A stretch of 64,000 nucleotides of DNA from Candidatus Micrarchaeum acidiphilum ARMAN-2 (lineage in GTDB: Archaea; Micrarchaeota; Micrarchaeia; Micrarchaeales; Micrarchaeaceae), in the NCBI GenBank assembly GCA_009387755.1, contig GG697241.1, positions 124,001 through 188,000 of the forward strand, in the 5' to 3' direction. A program made the position numbers and the translations under genes. Below the pieces are notes generated by a model, which was not told the DNA's origin, ran no database searches, and worked only from the letters and a program-made list of their open reading frames with translations. This document shows, in pieces, positions 8,336-61,458 of this stretch. Position 1 is the stretch's first letter; each line of letters begins with the position of its first letter.

Positions 8336-9388
8336 TCAGTAAAGTGAAACTGTTTCTTGCCGGGGCTTATTTGCGTATTTGCCGATTATTGGAATTGATG
8401 CGCCGCAGTTTGGGCAGGTGTTTCCAGATGCTAGGGCCCACTTTCTTACGTGCATATAGTCCCTTTCTATGCATTCCGAGCCGCAGTTTGGGCAGTACGT
8501 ATTAGAATACGTAGTGTCAGGCACATTTCCGATATATGCAAAGTTGACACCTTCGTCCTTTGCTATGTCATAATGGCGTTTTAAAGTATCAAAACTTGTT
8601 GCATTGTAATCTGTCATTTTGTAATCAGGGTGGAACCTGTTGAAGTGCATTGGAATGTCCGGACCTAGATTTCTTACGACCCACCTGGCCAGCTTTCTGC
8701 AGGCTTCTTCAGAATCTCCGACTCTAGGTATTATCAGATCTGTTATTTCTACGTGTATACCGGCTGCCTTAAGTTCAAGAAGAGCATCGAATATTGGCTT
8801 TTCATCTGCTATCGCTTCAAATTTGTTCGAGAATATTCTTTCGCCGTTGCCCTTGAAATCAACAACAACCGCATCTATGTTGCCCTTCATCAGCCGTATG
8901 GATTCTTTGGTAAGATAGCCGTTGCTCACAAACATTGTTGAAATTCCGTTTTTATGGGCGATCTTTGCCACATCTATTGCGTATTCTATGAATATTGTGG
9001 GTTCGTTATAGGTAAATGCTATGCCCTCTGCACCGTATTTCATCGCAATAGATACCGCTTCTACTGGCGCAATTTCTACACCGTTGATTTCCCTGTCTTT
9101 TGATATATTGTGGTTTTGGCAAAATAGGCAGCCGAAATTGCAGGAGGAAGTGCCAAGGCCCAACACGCTGCTTCCCGGCATGAAATGATAAAAGGGTTTC
9201 TTTTCAATAGGGTCGACCTGCAGTGCTGATATCATGCCGTAGCTTAATAGATATAACTTTCCGCCGATATTCCTGCGTATGTAGCAGAATCCGCCTGAGC
9301 CCTCGGGTATTTGGCACCTTCTGGCGCATGCGTTGCACACCACTTTAGAGCTTTGTAATTTCTCCCATAATTGCGCAGGTTTTTTCAT
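8336..9388 (-). CDS. amrS: Radical SAM enzyme of the AmrS (AmmeMemoRadiSam) type
   Basis: About 350 aa. An N-terminal cysteine cluster (CNACARRCQIPEGSGGFC) precedes the radical SAM CX3CX2C motif (CNFGCLFCQNHNIS), and a C-terminal zinc-ribbon pair (CPNCGSEC...CPNCGAS) ends the protein. This arrangement is characteristic of AmrS and the older PflA-like archaeal proteins. Its partners (Memo and AMMECR1) are not in the window, so the pathway cannot be confirmed here. ATG 9388 is chosen because the family begins near MKKPAQLWEKL; the longer frame to 9487 would run into the gyrB upstream region. Confidence 0.85.
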   Translation of the reverse strand: MKKPAQLWEKLQSSKVVCNACARRCQIPEGSGGFCYIRRNIGGKLYLLSYGMISALQVDPIEKKPFYHFMPGSSVLGLGTSSCNFGCLFCQNHNISKDREINGVEIAPVEAVSIAMKYGAEGIAFTYNEPTIFIEYAIDVAKIAHKNGISTMFVSNGYLTKESIRLMKGNIDAVVVDFKGNGERIFSNKFEAIADEKPIFDALLELKAAGIHVEITDLIIPRVGDSEEACRKLARWVVRNLGPDIPMHFNRFHPDYKMTDYNATSFDTLKRHYDIAKDEGVNFAYIGNVPDTTYSNTYCPNCGSECIERDYMHVRKWALASGNTCPNCGASIPIIGKYANKPRQETVSLY

Positions 9389-9542
9389 AATATTGCATTG
9401 ACATCCAAAATATTTATCCCTTCTGGATTTGGAGACAGAGACGTGGTTATTTGGAGCATACCAAAAGGGTTTTAAAGATAAAATCACATTATTAAGCGCA
9501 GTAAAAAAGGCGATCTTAAATTCTATAAAATTAGTTGGTAAA

Positions 9543-11450
9543 ATGGATGAAAATAACTATGGTGCCCGAGACATAATTGTGCTCTCCGGCCCCCAGGGCA
9601 TAAGGAAAAGGCCTGCAATGTATATAGGCTCTACAGGCAGCTCTGGCTTCATACACTTGCTATACGAAGTTATTGACAATTCGGTAGACGAAGCCATGGC
9701 AGGATACTGCAAGAACATATTGGTAAAACTGGGTAGGGAAAACGGGGTTGATTACGCTGAGGTCACTGATGATGGCAGAGGAATACCTGTAGATATAATG
9801 CCGAAGGAGGGCAAGCCTGCTGTTGAGGTAATAATGACTTCCATACATGCGGGAGCAAAATTTGAAAACAAGGCGTACAAGGTTTCTGGCGGGCTTCACG
9901 GCGTTGGATTAACTGTAGTAAACGCCCTGTCTTCTCATACGGAGGTTATTGTAAAACGCAATTCAAAAGTTTATAGGATAACCTTCAGTCGCGGAGTTCT
10001 AACTAGTGGGCTTGAAGAGATAGGCACGTGCGGCAACGAAACGGGAACTACGATAAAATTCGTGCCTGACACCGAAATATTTTCTGTAGACAGGTTTGAT
10101 ACCATACAGTTGACAGAGCGCCTAAGGTACCTTTCCTTCCTGAGCCCGGGACTTAAAATAAAGCTTGTAGATTTGCGCGAAGACAGCTCTGAGGAAACCA
10201 ACTTTTATTCTGAAAATGGGATTGTTGATTTTATCAATTACCTCAGGGGTGGAAAATCTGATGTCTCCAAGCCTATAATAATATCCAAAAGTGACAATTC
10301 CATAAAAGTAGACATAGGACTGCAATATGTGGACGGGTACAACGAGGAGCTGCTTTCCTTCGTCAACAAAATAAAAACTCCTGAAGGCGGTACGCATGTT
10401 ACTGGATTCAGAGGAGCACTAACTAGGGCCATTACAAATTACGTTCAGAAGAATTCTAAGAAAAAAACTTCTGTTAATATAGAGGGAGAAGATACCAGAG
10501 AGGGGCTTATAGCAGTGGTTGCGGTAATGATGCAAAACCCAGAATTTGAAGGGCAAACCAAGGAGAAACTTGGAAATGTCAATATAAAGTCAGTTGTGGA
10601 GAACATTGCTTATACTGCGCTTTCCTACTACTTTGAAGAAAATCCCGGAGAAGCCAATAAGGTAATAGAGAAAGTCAGCAGGGCTGCCGAAGCGCGGGAA
10701 GCCGCAAAAAGAGCCAGGGAGCTCACAAGAAAGAAGAGCCTTTTTGAGGGCGCGGTCCTTCCGGGAAAACTTGCGGACTGCACAGAGTCTGATCCGGACA
10801 AGGCCGAAATTTTCATAGTTGAAGGAGAGAGTGCAGCGGGCTCAAGCAAACAGGGCAGGGATAGATTTTATCAGGCGATACTCCCTCTTAGAGGAAAAAT
10901 ATTGAATGTTGAAAAGGCCACGGACGAGAAAATATTCAACAATGCAGAACTGCACCTTATGGTAACTGCTTTCGGCACAGGGATAAAGGAGGGCTTCAAC
11001 ATAGAAAACCTCAGGTATAAAAAGATAATACTGCTTACTGATGCAGATGTTGACGGCAGCCACATAAAGACCCTGCTTCTCACGTTCTTTTACCGGTATC
11101 TCAGGCCGCTCATAGAAAGGGGGTATATTTACATTGCGCAGCCCCCGCTTTACAAGGTCTCGCACGGCCGCGAAGTTAAGTATGCCTATTCTGATTCCGA
11201 ATTGAGCGCCTTGATGAAGGAGAACAACGGCAAAGGCAACGTACAGAGGTACAAAGGACTTGGGGAGATGAATCCGGAGCAGCTTTGGGAGACCACCATG
11301 GACCCGCAAAAACGTATCATTAAGCGCATCAGCATAAAGGACGCCCAGATAGCAGATGCGATATTCAACATATTGATGGGCATGGATGTTGTGCCTAGGA
11401 GGAAATTCCTCGAAGAACACTCGACAGAAGTGTCGTTCCTTGATGTGTGA
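9543..11450 (+). CDS. gyrB: DNA gyrase subunit B
   Basis: ATPase subunit of type IIA topoisomerase. The GHKL ATPase domain is intact ([12 protein letters not shown] near residue 17, [27 protein letters not shown]). The TOPRIM domain has [16 protein letters not shown] near residue 425 and [13 protein letters not shown] near residue 499, and [17 protein letters not shown] closes the protein. The 635-aa length equals short bacterial GyrB. ATG 9543 is used; a longer frame from TTG 9429 adds a non-conserved tail. gyrA begins five bases after the stop, so the pair is one operon. Archaeal gyrase is generally regarded as bacterial in origin. Confidence 0.96.
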
Positions 11451-11455
11451 AACAG

Positions 11456-13870
11456 ATGGCTGAAAACATTGTAGAAAATTCCATTGAGAATGAGATGCAG
11501 TCAAGCTACATAGATTACGCCATGAGCGTGATTGTAGGTAGAGCGCTGCCTGACGCAAGGGATGGGCTCAAACCTGCTCAGAGAAGGATACTTTATGCAA
11601 TGTACAGGCTCAACAATCTGCACGATCAGCAAACCAAAAAAAGCGCAAGAGTAGTGGGAGAAGTAATAGGAAAGTACCATCCTCACGGAGATATGGCAGC
11701 CTACGAAACCCTGGTCAGGATGGCGCAGGACTTTTCCATGAACCACATGCTTGTAGAAGGCCAGGGCAATATGGGATCTGTAGATGGGGATCCGCCCGCC
11801 GCACAGAGGTACACTGAAGTAAGGCTGAGAAAGATAGCCGAGGAGATGCTCGTAGACATGGACAAGGAATCTGTGCCTTTCATGCCGAACTTCGATAACA
11901 CAGAAACCGAGCCTGTGGTGCTGCCTTCGAAGGTGCCAAATCTCATGATAAACGGCTCGTCCGGCATAGCGGTGGGAGTCGCAACAAACATACTGCCGCA
12001 CAATCTCAGAGAAGTTTGCAGTGCAATAGCCGCGTATCTGGATAACATGGAGATAACGCCACAGGAGCTTCTTAATTATGTGAAGGGGCCCGATTTCCCT
12101 ACTGGCGGGATAGTATTTTACGACGGCAGGCTCATAGAATCTTATATAAAAGGCAGAGGGTCGGTAACGATACGCGCCAGGGTTAGCATAGAGAAGGAAA
12201 AGAGGGGAGAAAGGATAGTTATAAACGAGATACCATACACGGTAAACAAGGCCAGTCTGATAGAAAAGATAGGCAATCTTGTAAAGGATAGGGTAATAGA
12301 AGGAATTTCGGATTTGCGCGATGAGAGCGATAAGAAGGGCATACGCATATCCATAGAGCTCAAGGCCAACACAAATCCAGATTATGTGCTAAACGCCCTT
12401 TATAAACACACGCAGCTGCAGATTACAATGCCGGTAATGAATGTTGCGGTGCTTGGGAACAGGCTGCTCAATCTGAACATACGCGACATGATAAAGATTT
12501 TTGTTGAACACAGGTTTGGAGTTGTTATAAACAGGACGAATTATGATCTTAGGATAGCAAACCAAAGAAAACACATTGTTGACGGCCTGATTATTGCCAC
12601 CGGAGACATTGACAATGTGGTGGCAATAATAAGGGGCAGCGCAAACTCTTCCGGAGCTAAAGAGGCTCTCATGGCAAAGTACGGCATAACAGAAGCACAG
12701 GCGGCAGCTATACTAGATATGAAGCTTAGCAAGCTCACCAATTTGGAGGTCAATAATCTCAAGGCCGAAAAGGAAGAACTTGAAAACAGCATAAACTACT
12801 ACAACTCAGTGCTCGGCAGCAAGGAAAAAGTTTACCAGATAATAAAGGATGAGACTAAGGAGATAGCTGAAAAATACGGCATTGATAGGAGGACTGCGAT
12901 AGAGACGTCAGAGCTTGTTGAAATAGAAAACGAGGATCTTATAAAGGACGAGGACTCCATCATAATACTGACCAAAGACGGATACATGAAGCGTCTGCCA
13001 ATGGACGTCTACAAAAACCAAGGGCGTGGAGGCAGGGGTGTAATAAGCATTGACTTGAAAGAAGGCGACTTCGTGAAGCAGGTTGTCAGATGCATGACAA
13101 AAGACTATCTGCTGGTTATAACAAGCGCAGGCAGAGTTTATTGGCTAAAGGGCTATGTCGTTCCAGAAGGCGGAAGATACGCGCAGGGGAAGGCTGCCGT
13201 CAACCTTATAAGCATTGCTGAAGGCGAAAGAATAGAGCAGATAATAAACACCAGGGACTTCTCCGGTAAGAACTTGATATTTGCAACAAGGCGCGGAAGA
13301 ATCAAGAGCACCAAGGCCGAACTTTTTTCGAGGCCCAGAGCGAACGGCATCAGGGCCATAAAGCTCAACGAGGATGATATTGTCGTTGGAGTATGCCTGT
13401 CAACTGGAGGCTCTAACGTATTTTTGGCCACCAGAAACGGAAAGGCCATAAGGTTTATGGAATCGGACCTACGGCACATGGGCAGGGTGGCTTCCGGAGT
13501 AAGGGGCATAAGACTAAAGCCTAATGACGAACTTGTGGACGTCGTAGTTGCTGATCCCAAGAAGAACATAATCACAATTACGGAAAGAGGCTACGGAAAG
13601 GCCACATTGCTTGAAAGGTACAGGCTGCAAAGAAGGGGAGGAGGCGGAGTCATAAATCTGAAGGTAACCGAGAAAACAGGCAAGGTAGTGAGAGTGCTTG
13701 ACGGGGAGCAGGATGACAATGTGATAATATTCAACTCCAAAGGGCTGTCGATCAGGTTCAACGCAAATGCCATAAGAGTAACTGGTAGAAATGCGAGTGG
13801 AGTAAGGCTTATGAAGCTAGAGGCCGATGCAAAAGTCGTAGACGCACAAATTGTAGGCAAGGAAATGTAG
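11456..13870 (+). CDS. gyrA: DNA gyrase subunit A
   Basis: DNA breakage-reunion subunit. The N-terminus carries [20 protein letters not shown] and [13 protein letters not shown], the active-site tyrosine is Tyr119 in [10 protein letters not shown], and the C-terminal beta-pinwheel follows. The GyrA box that allows DNA wrapping and negative supercoiling is QRRGGGG at residues 725-731, differing from the common QRRGGKG only at the Lys. This argues for gyrase rather than topoisomerase IV. About 804 aa. ATG 11456 is preferred to the in-frame GTG 11447, which overlaps gyrB. Confidence 0.96.
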
Positions 13871-13920
13871 AGCTGAGCATCATTAAAATACCGTGCTTGT
13901 GCATAATGGATTGATTAACT

Positions 13921-14430
13921 ATGATAACCGCCATGGCAATAGGTAAATTCAATGAGCAAGAGATTAATGCTATTATTACCTCTTCCAGGGCCTTCGGCGC
14001 ATCAAACCTCATACTTACGCAGGAAAAGGACAAGGGAATAATAGATTTTTGCAGGAAACTCAACTCGAAGTGGGGGGGCAACTTCCATATTGAATTCACA
14101 AAAGACTGGATGTCTGAGATAAAATCCAGAAAGATGTACAAGGTTGTTTACCTGACCCAGTTCGGAATCCAAATTAGCAAGAGGATTAACGTAATACGCA
14201 CATACCGCAACCTTATACTTATAGTGACTAAGAACGACCCGAATAAAGAAATTATGGAGGTTTCCGATTTCAATGTCAGCATAACAGGGCAGCCGCACAC
14301 CTGCTCGGCTGCCATATCAATATTTCTGCATGATTTTTATCAGGGGAGGGAGCTGGCGCTGCATTTTGAAAATGCAAAATATAAAGTGGTGCCGCAGGAA
14401 AGAGGTTTCAGGATAGACAAAACAGTTTAA
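13921..14430 (+). CDS. tRNA (cytidine-56 2'-O)-methyltransferase, aTrm56-like
   Basis: SPOUT-fold protein of 169 aa, the size of archaeal aTrm56, which methylates the ribose of C56 in the T-loop. The C-terminal knot region reads SITGQPHTCSAAISIFLHDF, resembling the GNQPHSEVAAL segment of the family, and a long insertion precedes it. Start ATG 13921; an in-frame ATG at 13933 is possible. It follows gyrA after 50 bases and converges on radA. Identification rests on motif and length. Confidence 0.7.
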   Translation: MITAMAIGKFNEQEINAIITSSRAFGASNLILTQEKDKGIIDFCRKLNSKWGGNFHIEFTKDWMSEIKSRKMYKVVYLTQFGIQISKRINVIRTYRNLILIVTKNDPNKEIMEVSDFNVSITGQPHTCSAAISIFLHDFYQGRELALHFENAKYKVVPQERGFRIDKTV

Positions 14431-14439
14431 AGGTGCGGC

Positions 14440-15390
14440 CTAGTCCTTTATGCCGGCACTGGTTACCCGTATTATGCATTCTCCATCCGGCATATTTGGC
14501 GAGTCAACAAGGCGTATTATGCGCTTGTCCTCTTTGCTTTTCCTTATGTAAAGCCTGAGCGTTGCCGCGTGTGCTATTATGTTACCACCTATTGGTGTGG
14601 TTGGGTCGCCGAATAGTATTCCAGGGTTATCCATCACTTGGTTGGTTACATAAACTGCTACGTCATATTTGTCTGCAAGCTGCTGCAGCTTGTGCATGTG
14701 AGAGTTCAGCTTCTGCTGCCTTTCGCCCAAGGCGCCCCTTCCGAGGAATTCCGCCCTGAACAACGCAGTAAGAGAGTCTATTATTATCAGTTTTATGCCT
14801 TTTTCTCTTATTAGACTGTCGGCCCTTTCGATTGTGAGCATCTGCTTTTCTGACGAAGTTGCCCTTACAACCATTATGTTCTCAAGGGCCGTCTTAGGAT
14901 CTATTCCCTTCGCCTTGGCAATTTCCTCTATCCTTTCAGGCCTGAAAGTCCCTTCTGTATCTATGAAGAGCACCTTGCCGTCTACGCCGCCTTTGTCCTT
15001 TGGCAGCTGCGCGTTGACTGCAAGCTGGAAGGCCAGCTGTGTCTTTCCGCTGGCAAACTTTCCGTATACTTCAGTTATGGCGTTGATTTCTATTCCTCCG
15101 CCTATGAGCTCGTCCAGGTCCTTCGAGTTTGTGCTTATCTTTCCGAGTGCCTGCCTTTTTTCAGCTATGTTTGTGCCTGTTTCGAATTCTATTGTAGTTG
15201 CTTCCTGCGCTGCCTGTATGGCCTTTTTCGCAGCCTCTACGCTTATTCCGCTCTTTTCAGAGAGGTCGTGCGGCTGCGAGGTGGCAACCTTTTCCAGGGT
15301 GTCTATACCTGCAGCCTTTAGCTTTTCAGCGGATGTTTCGCCTATTCCTGGCAAGTCTTCAAGCTTTTTGACAGATTTATCTTTTGCCAT
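14440..15390 (-). CDS. radA: DNA repair and recombination protein RadA
   Basis: Archaeal RecA/Rad51 recombinase. An N-terminal helix-hairpin-helix domain (LEDLPGIGETSAEKL, residues 10-24) leads into the ATPase core with Walker A GKFASGKT at residues 110-117, Walker B LIIIDSL, and the C-terminal PIGGNIIAHAATLRLYIRKS. The 316-aa length is typical. Transcribed from a TATA-rich region at about 15424-15441 on the same strand. Confidence 0.97.
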   Translation of the reverse strand: MAKDKSVKKLEDLPGIGETSAEKLKAAGIDTLEKVATSQPHDLSEKSGISVEAAKKAIQAAQEATTIEFETGTNIAEKRQALGKISTNSKDLDELIGGGIEINAITEVYGKFASGKTQLAFQLAVNAQLPKDKGGVDGKVLFIDTEGTFRPERIEEIAKAKGIDPKTALENIMVVRATSSEKQMLTIERADSLIREKGIKLIIIDSLTALFRAEFLGRGALGERQQKLNSHMHKLQQLADKYDVAVYVTNQVMDNPGILFGDPTTPIGGNIIAHAATLRLYIRKSKEDKRIIRLVDSPNMPDGECIIRVTSAGIKD

Positions 15391-15423
15391 TTGAACATCG
15401 CAAAAATTTAGAGGCTCTGATTA

Positions 15424-15441
15424 GGTTTATATATAAATAGG
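15424..15441 (-). promoter_or_regulatory. TATA-box region upstream of radA
   Basis: An A/T-only stretch (tttatatataaata) lies about 40 bases before the radA ATG, a distance that suits an archaeal TATA box with a short leader. The sequence is nearly symmetric, so it could also serve rightward transcription towards the candidate RNA at 15.5 kb. Confidence 0.5.
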
Positions 15442-15496
15442 AATAAATAGATTATTATGCATTGAATAGGACTATTAAATTTTATCGTGATTTTTA

Positions 15497-15575
15497 GAGA
15501 ATTAGTGCCAGCGTAATTTCTTACGCTGGCAAGGCGACCAGTTCTTCACGACCTTCCTACAGTAGAGAACTCGTA
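15497..15575 (+). ncRNA. Candidate small structured RNA
   Basis: Within a 250-base non-coding gap between radA and the DUF92 gene is a perfect 10-bp hairpin (15507-15516 with 15521-15530, loop TTTC). It is followed by a second 6-bp stem (15540-15545 with 15566-15571) closing a 20-base loop. A TATA-like tattaaatttta lies about 25-30 bases before 15497, which would place a transcript start just ahead of the first hairpin. It is more GC-rich than its flanks. No tRNA, C/D-box or SRP motif is recognised. Strand is inferred only from the putative promoter. Confidence 0.4.
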
Positions 15576-15640
15576 ATAAACTATAAAAGGCAAGATTTAA
15601 AAGTTTTTCTATATTAGCGGAAGCGTATCAGGGGAATGCA

Positions 15641-16333
15641 ATGGAGTTTTTGACACTGAATGGGTACGGATTCGTTGGCGCAGTTGTATTCGGAGCCTTG
15701 ATACTGTTCTTTGGGTTGGGTATGGGTCCATATTTTCTTATTTTGATGCTTTATTTTCTGGCGCTCTCGGCCGTGGTTACCGCCATAGGAAAGAGGTATA
15801 AAAAGAGCATAAACCAGTACGAGAGATTCAGAACGATACGCAATGTAATTGCCAATGGCGCGTGGCCTCTCATAATGAGCATTGCTTTCTATTTTTCAGC
15901 TGGCAGCGGAAGCGTCGTCCTGCAGATTGCAATATTTGTCGGCTTCGTAAGCGCTGTGGCTGGCGTTGCTGCAGACAAGTTCAGCAGCGAAATAGGCATA
16001 ATGGACGGCAAACCCTTGCAACTTGTTTCATTTAAAAGGGTAAAAAAGGGCATTTCAGGGGGCGTGACGGCCCTAGGTCTCGGTGCAGGGCTGTTTGGGG
16101 CATTTTTAATAAGTGCCACGGTGTTTCTTCTGAAATCTGGGCTTGTTTCTAATTCGTCTTTGGCTGTGGTGGCTTTTGCTTGCGCGCTGGTAGGGGGATT
16201 TTTGGGTACAATATTTGATTCTGTTCTTGGATATTATGAAAGCAAGGGGATAGGAAATAAGTTTACATCCAACTTTTTCGGCAGTGCGTTTGGAAGCATT
16301 GCCGCCATGCTGATTTTTGCTGCAGTTATCTGA
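15641..16333 (+). CDS. DUF92 integral membrane protein
   Basis: About 230 aa with six or more hydrophobic helices and the DUF92 signatures AVAGVAADKFSSEIG, VSFKRVKKGISGGVTALG and FLGTIFDSVLGYY. The plant member VTE6 of this family is a phytyl-phosphate kinase, so a polyprenyl-phosphate kinase role in isoprenoid recycling is plausible but not shown. A TATA-like ctataaaagg lies at about 15581-15590. Convergent with the following gene; the two stops are one base apart. Confidence 0.75.
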   Translation: MEFLTLNGYGFVGAVVFGALILFFGLGMGPYFLILMLYFLALSAVVTAIGKRYKKSINQYERFRTIRNVIANGAWPLIMSIAFYFSAGSGSVVLQIAIFVGFVSAVAGVAADKFSSEIGIMDGKPLQLVSFKRVKKGISGGVTALGLGAGLFGAFLISATVFLLKSGLVSNSSLAVVAFACALVGGFLGTIFDSVLGYYESKGIGNKFTSNFFGSAFGSIAAMLIFAAVI

Positions 16334-16334
16334 A

Positions 16335-16970
16335 TCATATGAAGCCGTACCACAAAAGCAGTATGCCTATGAACTCAGAGTAGTAGAGAAATGCAGGTAC
16401 CTGAACTATGTATAGCGTGCCGGCTATGCTGACAACTATCACCCCTAGCACTATGCTGATCATTTTGGGCTTTTTCTGCTTGAAGTAGGTCTTTAGGGCA
16501 AGCGCAATGATTATTATTGCAGCTGGGAACGTAATTATGCTGGACGCTATAACAACCGGCAGCGGCAGTACGCCGTATACTATGTAGTTCACCAATATGT
16601 TACCGATTCTGCTGGTAATAAGTGCGTATGCCAATAGTATTGTGGTTGCTGCGCCGTATGAGTAGTATGCAAGGCTTATCTTTCTCGATTTAAGCATGGA
16701 AACTGATCCGAAAGCCAGGAATTCGACAATGAGTGCAACCAGCAGCAGATAGAGCTTGGCCATAGCCTGCGAGTATACAGAGAATGCGAACAGCACTTCT
16801 ATAGCAACTGAAATCGCAAATATCCATATGCCTGTGCCCCAAAGCAGCAGCGGTTGCTGGCGCGTCCGGAAGTATTTATTTGACATCTTTACAGCAAGGC
16901 CCAGGGTGAGCAGCAGTATGACTATTGTTGAAAATTCGACAAATCCTTGTGATACCAGTATCCCAGATAT
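16335..16970 (-). CDS. Polytopic membrane protein, apparent ATA start
   Basis: Unknown membrane protein with about six helices. The first ATG in frame is 16886, but the open frame continues upstream through a plausible extra helix (SGILVSQGFVEFSTIVILLL) to an ATA at 16970. That ATA lies exactly five bases after a GGTG motif (16976-16979), the same spacing used by confidently identified genes here. From ATA the protein has 211 aa. The upstream codons run back to a TAG-TGA double stop that ends the epimerase gene in the same frame. If ATG 16886 is used instead the protein has 183 aa and loses the first helix. Confidence 0.6.
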   Translation of the reverse strand: MSGILVSQGFVEFSTIVILLLTLGLAVKMSNKYFRTRQQPLLLWGTGIWIFAISVAIEVLFAFSVYSQAMAKLYLLLVALIVEFLAFGSVSMLKSRKISLAYYSYGAATTILLAYALITSRIGNILVNYIVYGVLPLPVVIASSIITFPAAIIIIALALKTYFKQKKPKMISIVLGVIVVSIAGTLYIVQVPAFLYYSEFIGILLLWYGFI

Positions 16971-16975
16971 TTTTA

Positions 16976-16979
16976 CACC
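16976..16979 (-). promoter_or_regulatory. Ribosome binding site (GGTG) supporting an ATA start
   Basis: GGTG complementary to the archaeal 16S 3' end, followed by TAAAA and then ATA (16970-16968) in frame with the membrane protein. Spacing of five bases matches that for S3, L23, L44e, Rpp21 and the DHH gene in this window. Confidence 0.5.
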
Positions 16980-16988
16980 CGCAATTCA

Positions 16989-17864
16989 CTATAATTCAGG
17001 CAGTAGATTTTCCAACTCTGTGAATTTGTATTCCCCTATGGCTTCCCTGAGCTTTCTTGTGTCTGCCCGTGTAAGGCGCTGGTAGCTGGATAGAGGGTTT
17101 GGTACGTGCTCTTTGTTGCCTGGGTCTATTAGTTCTGCAATTTTAAGATAGGAGGTGGCCGTCCCGGTGCCTATGTTATACACCCCACTCTCGGCCTTTT
17201 TTAGGAGTTTTAGCACTATTTCTGCAACGTCTTTGACATATACAAAATCCCTGGATTGAGATCCGTCTCCGTATATTACTAGCTTTTTGCCAGCATCTTT
17301 GTAGGACTTGAATATAGTTATTATGCTGGCGTAGTCACCCTTGTCGTTTTCTCCTGGGCCGTACACGTTGAAGAAGCGCATGCCCACGGTCGGAAGCTTG
17401 TAGATGTCCCTATATGACTCCGCATACATCTCGTTTATGAGCTTGCTCTTGGCGTAGTGGTTTCTCTGCTTTTTTATGTCTATTACGAATTCCTCGCTGA
17501 ATTGACTTTCCTCAGGATAAACAGCGGAGCTAGAAGCGTAAAGGAACTTTTTGCATTTGAACTTTGCCGCGGCATTTATCACATTTAAAAAGCCGTTAAC
17601 GTTGACTTCGTGGGCCATTTCGTAGTCCTTTTCGAATTCTATGTTTGACGTTATTGCGGCCAGGTGTATTACGTAGTCTGCTCTCGAAACGGCATTTTCT
17701 ACTGCCTGCCTGTCGGTTATACTGCCCGTGATAAACTCTACTTCTGGGTTTTTGCAGTCCTTTACATCCATCCCGATTACATGATAACCCTCAGTTAGTG
17801 CATGCTCAGACACATGGCTGCCTATAAATCCGCTGCATCCGGTTACCAGAATGGTTTCTTGCAT
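16989..17864 (-). CDS. NAD-dependent nucleotide-sugar epimerase/dehydratase
   Basis: Extended short-chain dehydrogenase of 291 aa. The NAD-binding motif is GCSGFIGSH near the N-terminus, the catalytic YxxxK is YAKSK, the serine site is ASSSAVYP, and GDGSQSRDFVYVKDVA and YNIGTG follow, as in UDP-glucose 4-epimerase and related enzymes. It probably makes a sugar precursor for surface glycans, which would feed the AglB pathway. ATG 17864 is used because the longer frame (to 17909) overlaps the previous gene. Ends with a TAG-TGA double stop. Confidence 0.85.
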   Translation of the reverse strand: MQETILVTGCSGFIGSHVSEHALTEGYHVIGMDVKDCKNPEVEFITGSITDRQAVENAVSRADYVIHLAAITSNIEFEKDYEMAHEVNVNGFLNVINAAAKFKCKKFLYASSSAVYPEESQFSEEFVIDIKKQRNHYAKSKLINEMYAESYRDIYKLPTVGMRFFNVYGPGENDKGDYASIITIFKSYKDAGKKLVIYGDGSQSRDFVYVKDVAEIVLKLLKKAESGVYNIGTGTATSYLKIAELIDPGNKEHVPNPLSSYQRLTRADTRKLREAIGEYKFTELENLLPEL

Positions 17865-17895
17865 AAATTTGTATTTTATTAAAAGTTTATAAGGT

Positions 17896-18414
17896 TTAGT
17901 AGTTGCCACGTATTACCAGGTCTTCGAAAAGACTTTCTAGCCAGTGCTTCTTTGATATTTCTTCTGAATTAAGCGCCCTGAATGCCGCGCCTACCTGCGA
18001 GTCTGCGTATTCGTTCATGTATATTTCAAACAGGCCTGCATAATCGTCTGCTATTTTTATGGATTTCTGTATTATTATGGCGAGATCCTTTTCTGTGCCT
18101 GACAGACCTTCAGAATCTTGGGTTAGGTGGTCGAATACACCGTGTATAACTTCCTCTCCCTCCTTTTCGCTTTTAAATTCAGGGTTTTCAATTATCTTTT
18201 TTATTAGGGCTTTCTCGCCTTCCTCTTTTCTTTTCAGTATTTCCACCCATGTAAGCACATTTTCAAGGAGTATGCTTTGTTTAATTTGTTCGTATTTGCT
18301 TATGAGCTCATCCTTGCTGCGCAATATTTTGGCGAGGAACTCGTTCCTTAGGTCTACTGGATGTTTGTCTTTGTTTATTTGATTTTCGCTATTATGTTGT
18401 GTTTTATCTGCCAT
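17896..18414 (-). CDS. Helical protein of unknown function
   Basis: About 172 aa, highly charged and mostly helical, with no membrane segment. A C-terminal run (LNSEEISKKHWLES) faintly resembles the E-x-x-H helix of ferritin-like proteins, but other ligands are not evident. ATG 18414 is chosen over 18444 because a TATA box (tttataaattt, 18431-18441) lies between them at leaderless distance. It precedes the epimerase gene by 31 bases and may be cotranscribed. Confidence 0.55.
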   Translation of the reverse strand: MADKTQHNSENQINKDKHPVDLRNEFLAKILRSKDELISKYEQIKQSILLENVLTWVEILKRKEEGEKALIKKIIENPEFKSEKEGEEVIHGVFDHLTQDSEGLSGTEKDLAIIIQKSIKIADDYAGLFEIYMNEYADSQVGAAFRALNSEEISKKHWLESLFEDLVIRGNY

Positions 18415-19650: not shown

Positions 19651-19750
19651 TGGGCCTGGAGAGATTTGAACTCTCGACCTACGGCTTTCTTATTATGCAA
19701 TCGTGCATAATTATAAGACCGCCGCTCTGACCAGGCTGAGCTACAAGCCC
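19651..19750 (-). tRNA. tRNA-Ile (anticodon TAT) with a 25-base intron
   Basis: The acceptor GGGCTTG pairs with CAGGCCC (one G-T pair), with D stem GCTC/GAGC and T stem GAGAG/CTCTC. The anticodon stem GCGGT/GCCGT encloses a 7-base loop CTTATA-A interrupted after position 37. The precursor forms a canonical bulge-helix-bulge: a 4-bp central helix CTTA/TAAG, 3-base bulges TAA and AAA, and a 7-bp inner stem. The intron occupies 19687-19711. Cleavage after the second bulge bases gives anticodon TAT, reading ATA. No encoded CCA. Substrate for EndA at 3.9 kb. Confidence 0.9.
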
Positions 19751-29732: not shown

Positions 29733-29807
29733 AGCGAGGTAGGGTAGTCTGGAGTGCCCGCCGGGCTCATAACCCGGAGATCAGTGGTTCAAATCCACTC
29801 CTCGCTA
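29733..29807 (+). tRNA. Initiator tRNA-Met (anticodon CAT)
   Basis: Acceptor AGCGAGG pairs with CCTCGCT; the A1-U72 pair and the three G-C pairs of the anticodon stem (CCGGG/CCCGG around loop CTCATAA) are the marks of archaeal initiators. D stem GGGT/GCCC, T stem AGTGG/CCACT. 75 bases, no intron, no encoded CCA. Confidence 0.93.
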
Positions 29808-61308: not shown

Positions 61309-61458
61309 ACACCTACCCCAAAATCAGCGCCTTCACACAAGGCCCAGCCTGTTTATATAGCTTAGGCAAGCTTTCCTTGGTGTTTTTATAACTGTTAAAC
61401 TATTTATACTTTACTAAAATAAATTTACTTTAATATATAAATATATACAAATAGAAAC

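Follow-up and report, generated by a model that had tools for sequence, protein, structure and literature searches.

Comparative evidence for AUA and ACG start codons in Candidatus Micrarchaeum acidiphilum ARMAN-2 and related archaea

RESULTS

A probable AUA start codon in a membrane protein gene

A gene for a seven-helix membrane protein in Candidatus Micrarchaeum acidiphilum ARMAN-2 very probably starts at AUA-16970, which would be selected by a Shine-Dalgarno (SD) core and read by the ordinary CAU initiator tRNA, with AUA and ACG serving as rare but genuine starts in this lineage. Sequence comparisons demonstrate the start position, its SD, the conservation of the N-terminal extension, and the recurrence of such starts in other genes. 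Coordinates refer to the window, the whole 64,000-nucleotide stretch analyzed (G000:C8:124001-188000), which belongs to a draft metagenome-type genome of 1.01 Mb in 8 contigs.

The target gene lies on the minus strand with its stop at 16335 and its first in-frame ATG at 16886, as given by the open reading frame (ORF) list and the sequence. The initial annotation held that the frame stays open for 28 codons beyond this ATG without ATG, GTG, or TTG, which is correct for the 28-codon stretch at 16970-16887. The frame continues five codons above the ATA (ATT GCG GGT GTA AAA) up to a TGA at 16988-16986, leaving 33 open codons above ATG-16886; because this stretch holds no ATG, GTG, or TTG and is closed by an in-frame TGA, a canonical upstream start is absent. 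The described placement of the ATA exactly five bases after GGTG was likewise exact (GGTG at 16979-16976, ATA at 16970-16968), and the GTG within this GGTG is out of frame with the target gene. An NAD-dependent epimerase gene lies upstream in the same direction, and a DUF92 gene converges on the target gene from the other side. The features are as follows.

16335 to 16970, minus strand: coding sequence from the ATA start, for a predicted 211-residue seven-helix membrane protein without known family (open frame, homologues, structure model)
16968 to 16970, minus strand: putative ATA start codon (alignment with the homologues' ATG, or GTG in one genome)
16976 to 16979, minus strand: GGTG SD core, 5 nt upstream of the ATA (genome-wide enrichment at spacing 5, 16S rRNA 3′ end GATCACCTC, duplex energy)
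16887 to 16970, minus strand: 28-codon N-terminal extension, most of helix 1 (invariant residues, third-position bias, model helix 8-36)
16884 to 16886, minus strand: first in-frame ATG, an internal methionine codon (ORF list, weak anti-SD pairing)
16986 to 16988, minus strand: in-frame TGA closing the frame upstream (sequence, also seen in the locus comparison)
16989 to 17909, minus strand: co-directional upstream NAD-dependent epimerase gene, ending 18 nt before the ATA

Homologues start at or near the ATA codon

The 216-residue open frame, in which the ATA encodes residue 6, was used as the query against 99 related genomes, and homologues were found in 55 of them. Many of the top alignments start at query residues 5 to 8. 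Relatives in named genomes belong mainly to Candidatus Micrarchaeota, Parvarchaeota, Nanoarchaeota, and Micrarchaeum, and the gene is absent from the sibling genome searched. Start DNA was compared at 29 loci and at 35 loci of named genomes, two overlapping sets. In both sets, every locus has its ATG on the ATA codon or within a few codons of it, save that one genome (L010 = L057) uses GTG, and in 15 of the 35 the ATG falls exactly on the ATA codon, often with MSGIF, MSSIF, or MAGIL aligned to ISGIL. In several loci the frame is closed no more than two codons above the homologous ATG, so a longer N terminus is impossible there. The codon at the homologous start of the target gene is thus neither ATG, GTG, nor TTG and has no in-frame canonical start upstream. 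The initial annotation had proposed initiation at ATA and had named orthologues starting at the ATG-16886 methionine as evidence against it. None of the loci in the two overlapping sets is forced to start there, and in the alignment the extra N-terminal helix is kept while ATG (GTG in one genome) replaces the ATA, which supports the proposed start on comparative grounds.

Three residues of the extension (S14, I18, and L25) do not vary in an alignment of 31 proteins, and mismatches to the closest relative over codons 2 to 28 number 6, 4, and 20 at codon positions 1, 2, and 3, respectively. This pattern indicates that the residues between the ATA and ATG-16886 are under protein-level selection. 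An AlphaFold2 model built from the same alignment (pLDDT, 81.9; pTM, 0.79) has seven long helices, and the helix spanning residues 8 to 36 (pLDDT, ∼90) consists mostly of the extension, in agreement with the extra hydrophobic helix noted at first. Fold comparison of the model returned weak seven-helix resemblances and nothing at an E value of ≤0.001, and Pfam holds no family for the protein.

These data bear on a start at ATG-16886, with the first helix lost in the ARMAN-2 lineage. This ATG is the first canonical start codon, and in some homologues an internal methionine occupies the equivalent position; however, it lacks an SD, the codons above it show invariant residues and mainly third-position changes, and starting there would remove the first helix of the seven-helix model, to which that helix is integral. 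We regard such a start as very improbable. Initiation at another in-frame near-cognate codon, such as ATT at 16985, ATA at 16961, or CTG at 16958, seems still less probable: the frame is open at those codons and homologue N termini differ by a few residues, but only ATA-16970 stands at the preferred distance from GGTG, and many homologues have their ATG exactly there.

A well-spaced Shine-Dalgarno core precedes the ATA

Genome-wide, 74 of 614 genes have GGTG 5 nt before their first ATG, 46 times expectation, and GGTGN5ATG occurs 13 times in the window against 5.95 in shuffles. The anti-SD duplex reaches −6.4 kcal/mol upstream of the ATA and −2.4 kcal/mol upstream of ATG-16886. The SD core of the target gene therefore sits at the spacing that the genome prefers, as in SD-led archaeal genes; the presence of an SD and of a co-directional upstream gene ending 18 nt from the ATA would speak against leaderless initiation. 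The same geometry had been claimed at other genes by the initial annotation; several of the comparison sites are ORF starts (e.g., near 19.2 kb and 49.2 kb). Counted without restriction, GGTGN5ATA occurs 16 times in the window and ATA shows no enrichment at spacing 5; at one of these sites, at 61390, a stop follows after 9 codons. Since the motif is this common, it is no proof by itself, and the proof comes from the orthologues.

Near-cognate starts recur in other genes

We counted codons standing 5 nt past GGTG and above any ATG, GTG, or TTG, with larger spacings as the control, in a pool of the ARMAN-2 genome, its sibling species (G001, 437 kb of sequence covered), and a further genome of the same family (G010). 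ATA was the most enriched of 61 codons in the pool (12 seen versus 1.08 expected, representing 11 distinct genes, as one is shared by both siblings), followed by ACG (5 versus 0.42). In the ARMAN-2 genome taken singly, ACG (5 versus 0.33) exceeded ATA (4 versus 0.58), and in G010 ATA led (6 versus 0.33). A few ORFs in this restricted count may be spurious, and we adopted the restriction once a looser count had given no ATA signal, so its P values are indicative and the main weight lies with the orthologue checks. A PSSM-based count gave 7 ACG versus 0.25 and a weaker excess of ATA (10 versus 3.0). Near-cognates at spacing 6 were not taken as proof, since that spacing puts the GTG of GGTG in frame.

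Comparison of the ARMAN-2 genome with G010 identified 10 of 567 genes with a homologue in which homology extends at least 8 residues above any canonical start. The longest such extension is that of the target gene. Another of the 10, q363, has ACG 5 nt past GGTG at the position where its homologue starts; G010 has TTG there. The gene for an exosome-type RNA-binding protein (q755) keeps its ATA and SD in the sibling, and q925, which encodes NMD3, has ATA 5 nt past GGTG in ARMAN-2 and likewise in G010. Three G010 genes have ATA 5 nt after GGTG where ARMAN-2 has ATG: PheT (L128:12792; ATG in the sibling as well), CysRS (L161:7708), and an unnamed protein (G010_498, L147:18566). At q485 and q640 (arginine deiminase), ACG in ARMAN-2 corresponds to ATG at the same codon in the sibling. 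The ACG and SD of q427 (diphthamide synthase) and q404 (HhH-GPD) are kept in the sibling, with an in-frame ATG or TTG upstream. For q772, MetRS by sequence (L106, minus strand; sibling L206), both siblings have ACG and G010 has ATG; the spacing is 6 and the GTG of the SD is in frame, which leaves this start ambiguous.

In the ARMAN-2 genome, ACG was observed 5 nt past GGTG at eight apparent gene starts (L085:7612, L091:11577, L092:9411, L099:12183, L076:6998, L088:1135, L087:19268, and L100:6994); two of the eight are ATG in the sibling, two are ACG in the sibling, and one is TTG in G010. In G010, sequence marks on the minus strand of L151 (offsets ∼8735 to 16232) repeat four times with a period of 1,974 bases, suggesting a large tandem repeat.

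The recurrence bears on the main rival to an AUA start, in which the living population has ATG and the ATA arose from an error in assembly or sequencing, or from an allele of a minority strain that became fixed in the consensus. The target ATA is known from one draft metagenome-type assembly of 8 contigs, all homologues have ATG or GTG, and a single transition would be enough. Set against this, ATA and ACG past a well-spaced GGTG are found in several genes and genomes, some of them common to the sibling species, and this repeated occurrence speaks for such starts being real. We consider an error or minority allele at this base improbable.

Near-cognate starts of NMD3 across the family

The NMD3 start was compared at 30 loci.

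L115:16961-17611, minus strand: NMD3 locus (further NMD3 loci, L210-L239)

ATG stands at the homologous start in most of the 30. ATA was found at spacing 5 in G000 (ARMAN-2), G010, G033, and G047 and at spacing 6 in G019 and G041; ATC (G008) and ACG (G012) also occur at spacing 5, and ATT occurs at spacing 6 in G057. When 85 family genomes were searched by pattern, 13 NMD3 starts of the form AUN or ACN with GGTG 4 to 7 nt upstream came up, comprising 3 ATG, 7 ATA, 2 ATC, and 1 ATT. Near-cognates (ATA, ATC, or ACG) at spacing 5 are present in eight genomes (G000, G010, G033, G047, G112, G116, G008, and G012), and among NMD3 starts preceded by GGTG, near-cognates are more numerous than ATG. With a spacing of 6, translation could instead begin at the internal GTG; in G019 an intervening TGA precludes this. 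In G107, G111, and G037, ATC or ATT at this position, without GGTG at that distance, is a candidate start.

Editing of the mRNA could also yield AUG, as A-to-I conversion would let AUA be read as AUG and C-to-U conversion would turn ACG into AUG. One deamination suffices for each change, and plant organelles are known to edit ACG to AUG; we know of no case of start codon editing in archaeal mRNA, and NMD3 of G116 and G008, where ATC stands 5 nt past GGTG, counts against editing because ATC is not convertible to AUG by deamination. We give this explanation almost no credence.

Initiator tRNA, aIF1, and a proposed mechanism

The window contains an initiator tRNA gene.

29733 to 29807, plus strand: initiator tRNA, anticodon CAT (tRNA detection, anticodon-arm motif)

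It has the initiator-type GGG/CCC anticodon stem and was the sole tRNA match to the anticodon-arm motif in a scan that covered intron-containing tRNAs in part; in that same scan, the candidate cause of an altered initiator anticodon was not found. The aIF1 (SUI1) gene is present in the ARMAN-2 genome and in 20 of 21 searched, which rules out aIF1 loss as the cause. Neither a changed anticodon nor loss of aIF1 is thus seen. Elsewhere in the window, Rfam identifies a tRNA at 19651-19750 (minus strand) that ARAGORN missed and that probably contains an intron.

For the AUA start, SD-positioned initiation at a mismatched codon is likely the simplest account. The GGUG core would pair with the 16S rRNA 3′ end (GAUCACCUC) and place AUA-16970 in the P site, where the ordinary CAU initiator Met-tRNA would initiate despite the third-position mismatch; methionine would most likely be the first residue. 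With the stop of the co-directional upstream gene 18 nt from the ATA, ribosomes may also arrive by translational coupling. In Escherichia coli AUA supports only weak initiation, which counts against its use here; initiation at the target AUA, like its efficiency, is inferred.

DISCUSSION

AUA and ACG are, as judged from orthologues, rare but genuine starts at several genes per genome in this Micrarchaeota lineage. The initial annotation, which proposed an ATA start for one gene, was an understatement, as starts at ATA and ACG are also found elsewhere in the genome and in further genomes of the family.

Near-cognate starts have been proven in a few bacterial genes. NCBI genetic code table 11 lists ATA, ATT, ATC, and CTG as possible starts and omits ACG, and the listing is no evidence of archaeal use. 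In the open-access literature that we searched, archaeal starts at AUA or ACG were not reported. The target gene resembles the bacterial infC kind in that a near-cognate AUH is the true start and is missed by gene finders in many genomes; it differs in that the infC start serves autoregulation and is read by IF3, whereas the target is archaeal, IF3 is absent, and the codon is AUA. SD-positioned initiation at AUA would be comparable to that of IF3-controlled bacterial genes (PMC5472188). Among these, sigR of Streptomyces has a GTC start that is repressed by IF3, and it too is a start beyond ATG, GTG, and TTG that matters and was found by doubting the annotation; the sigR start is experimentally proven, whereas the evidence for the target ATA is comparative (PMC5472188). 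The ARMAN-2 system shares its GGTG-type SD with the matching 16S 3′ end, CAU initiator tRNA, and aIF1 with archaeal SD-led initiation, for which passages of a review of archaeal initiation name AUG, GUG, and UUG and leave AUA and ACG unmentioned (PMC7531240).

A broader reading, to which we attach a rather low probability, is that Micrarchaeota follow a relaxed rule (AUA, ACG, AUC, or AUU behind a well-spaced GGUG) and that the weak start of NMD3, and perhaps those of PheT, CysRS, and MetRS, is retained as a control element sensing initiation stringency, an archaeal counterpart of the infC loop.

AUA and ACG starts in the lineage imply that standard gene finders shorten such proteins. If such starts are genuine family-wide, several genes in each genome would be annotated in truncated or shifted form, including those for NMD3, an exosome-type subunit, and aminoacyl-tRNA synthetases, and these genes would form a natural test set for the stringency with which aIF1, aIF2, and the archaeal ribosome select start codons.
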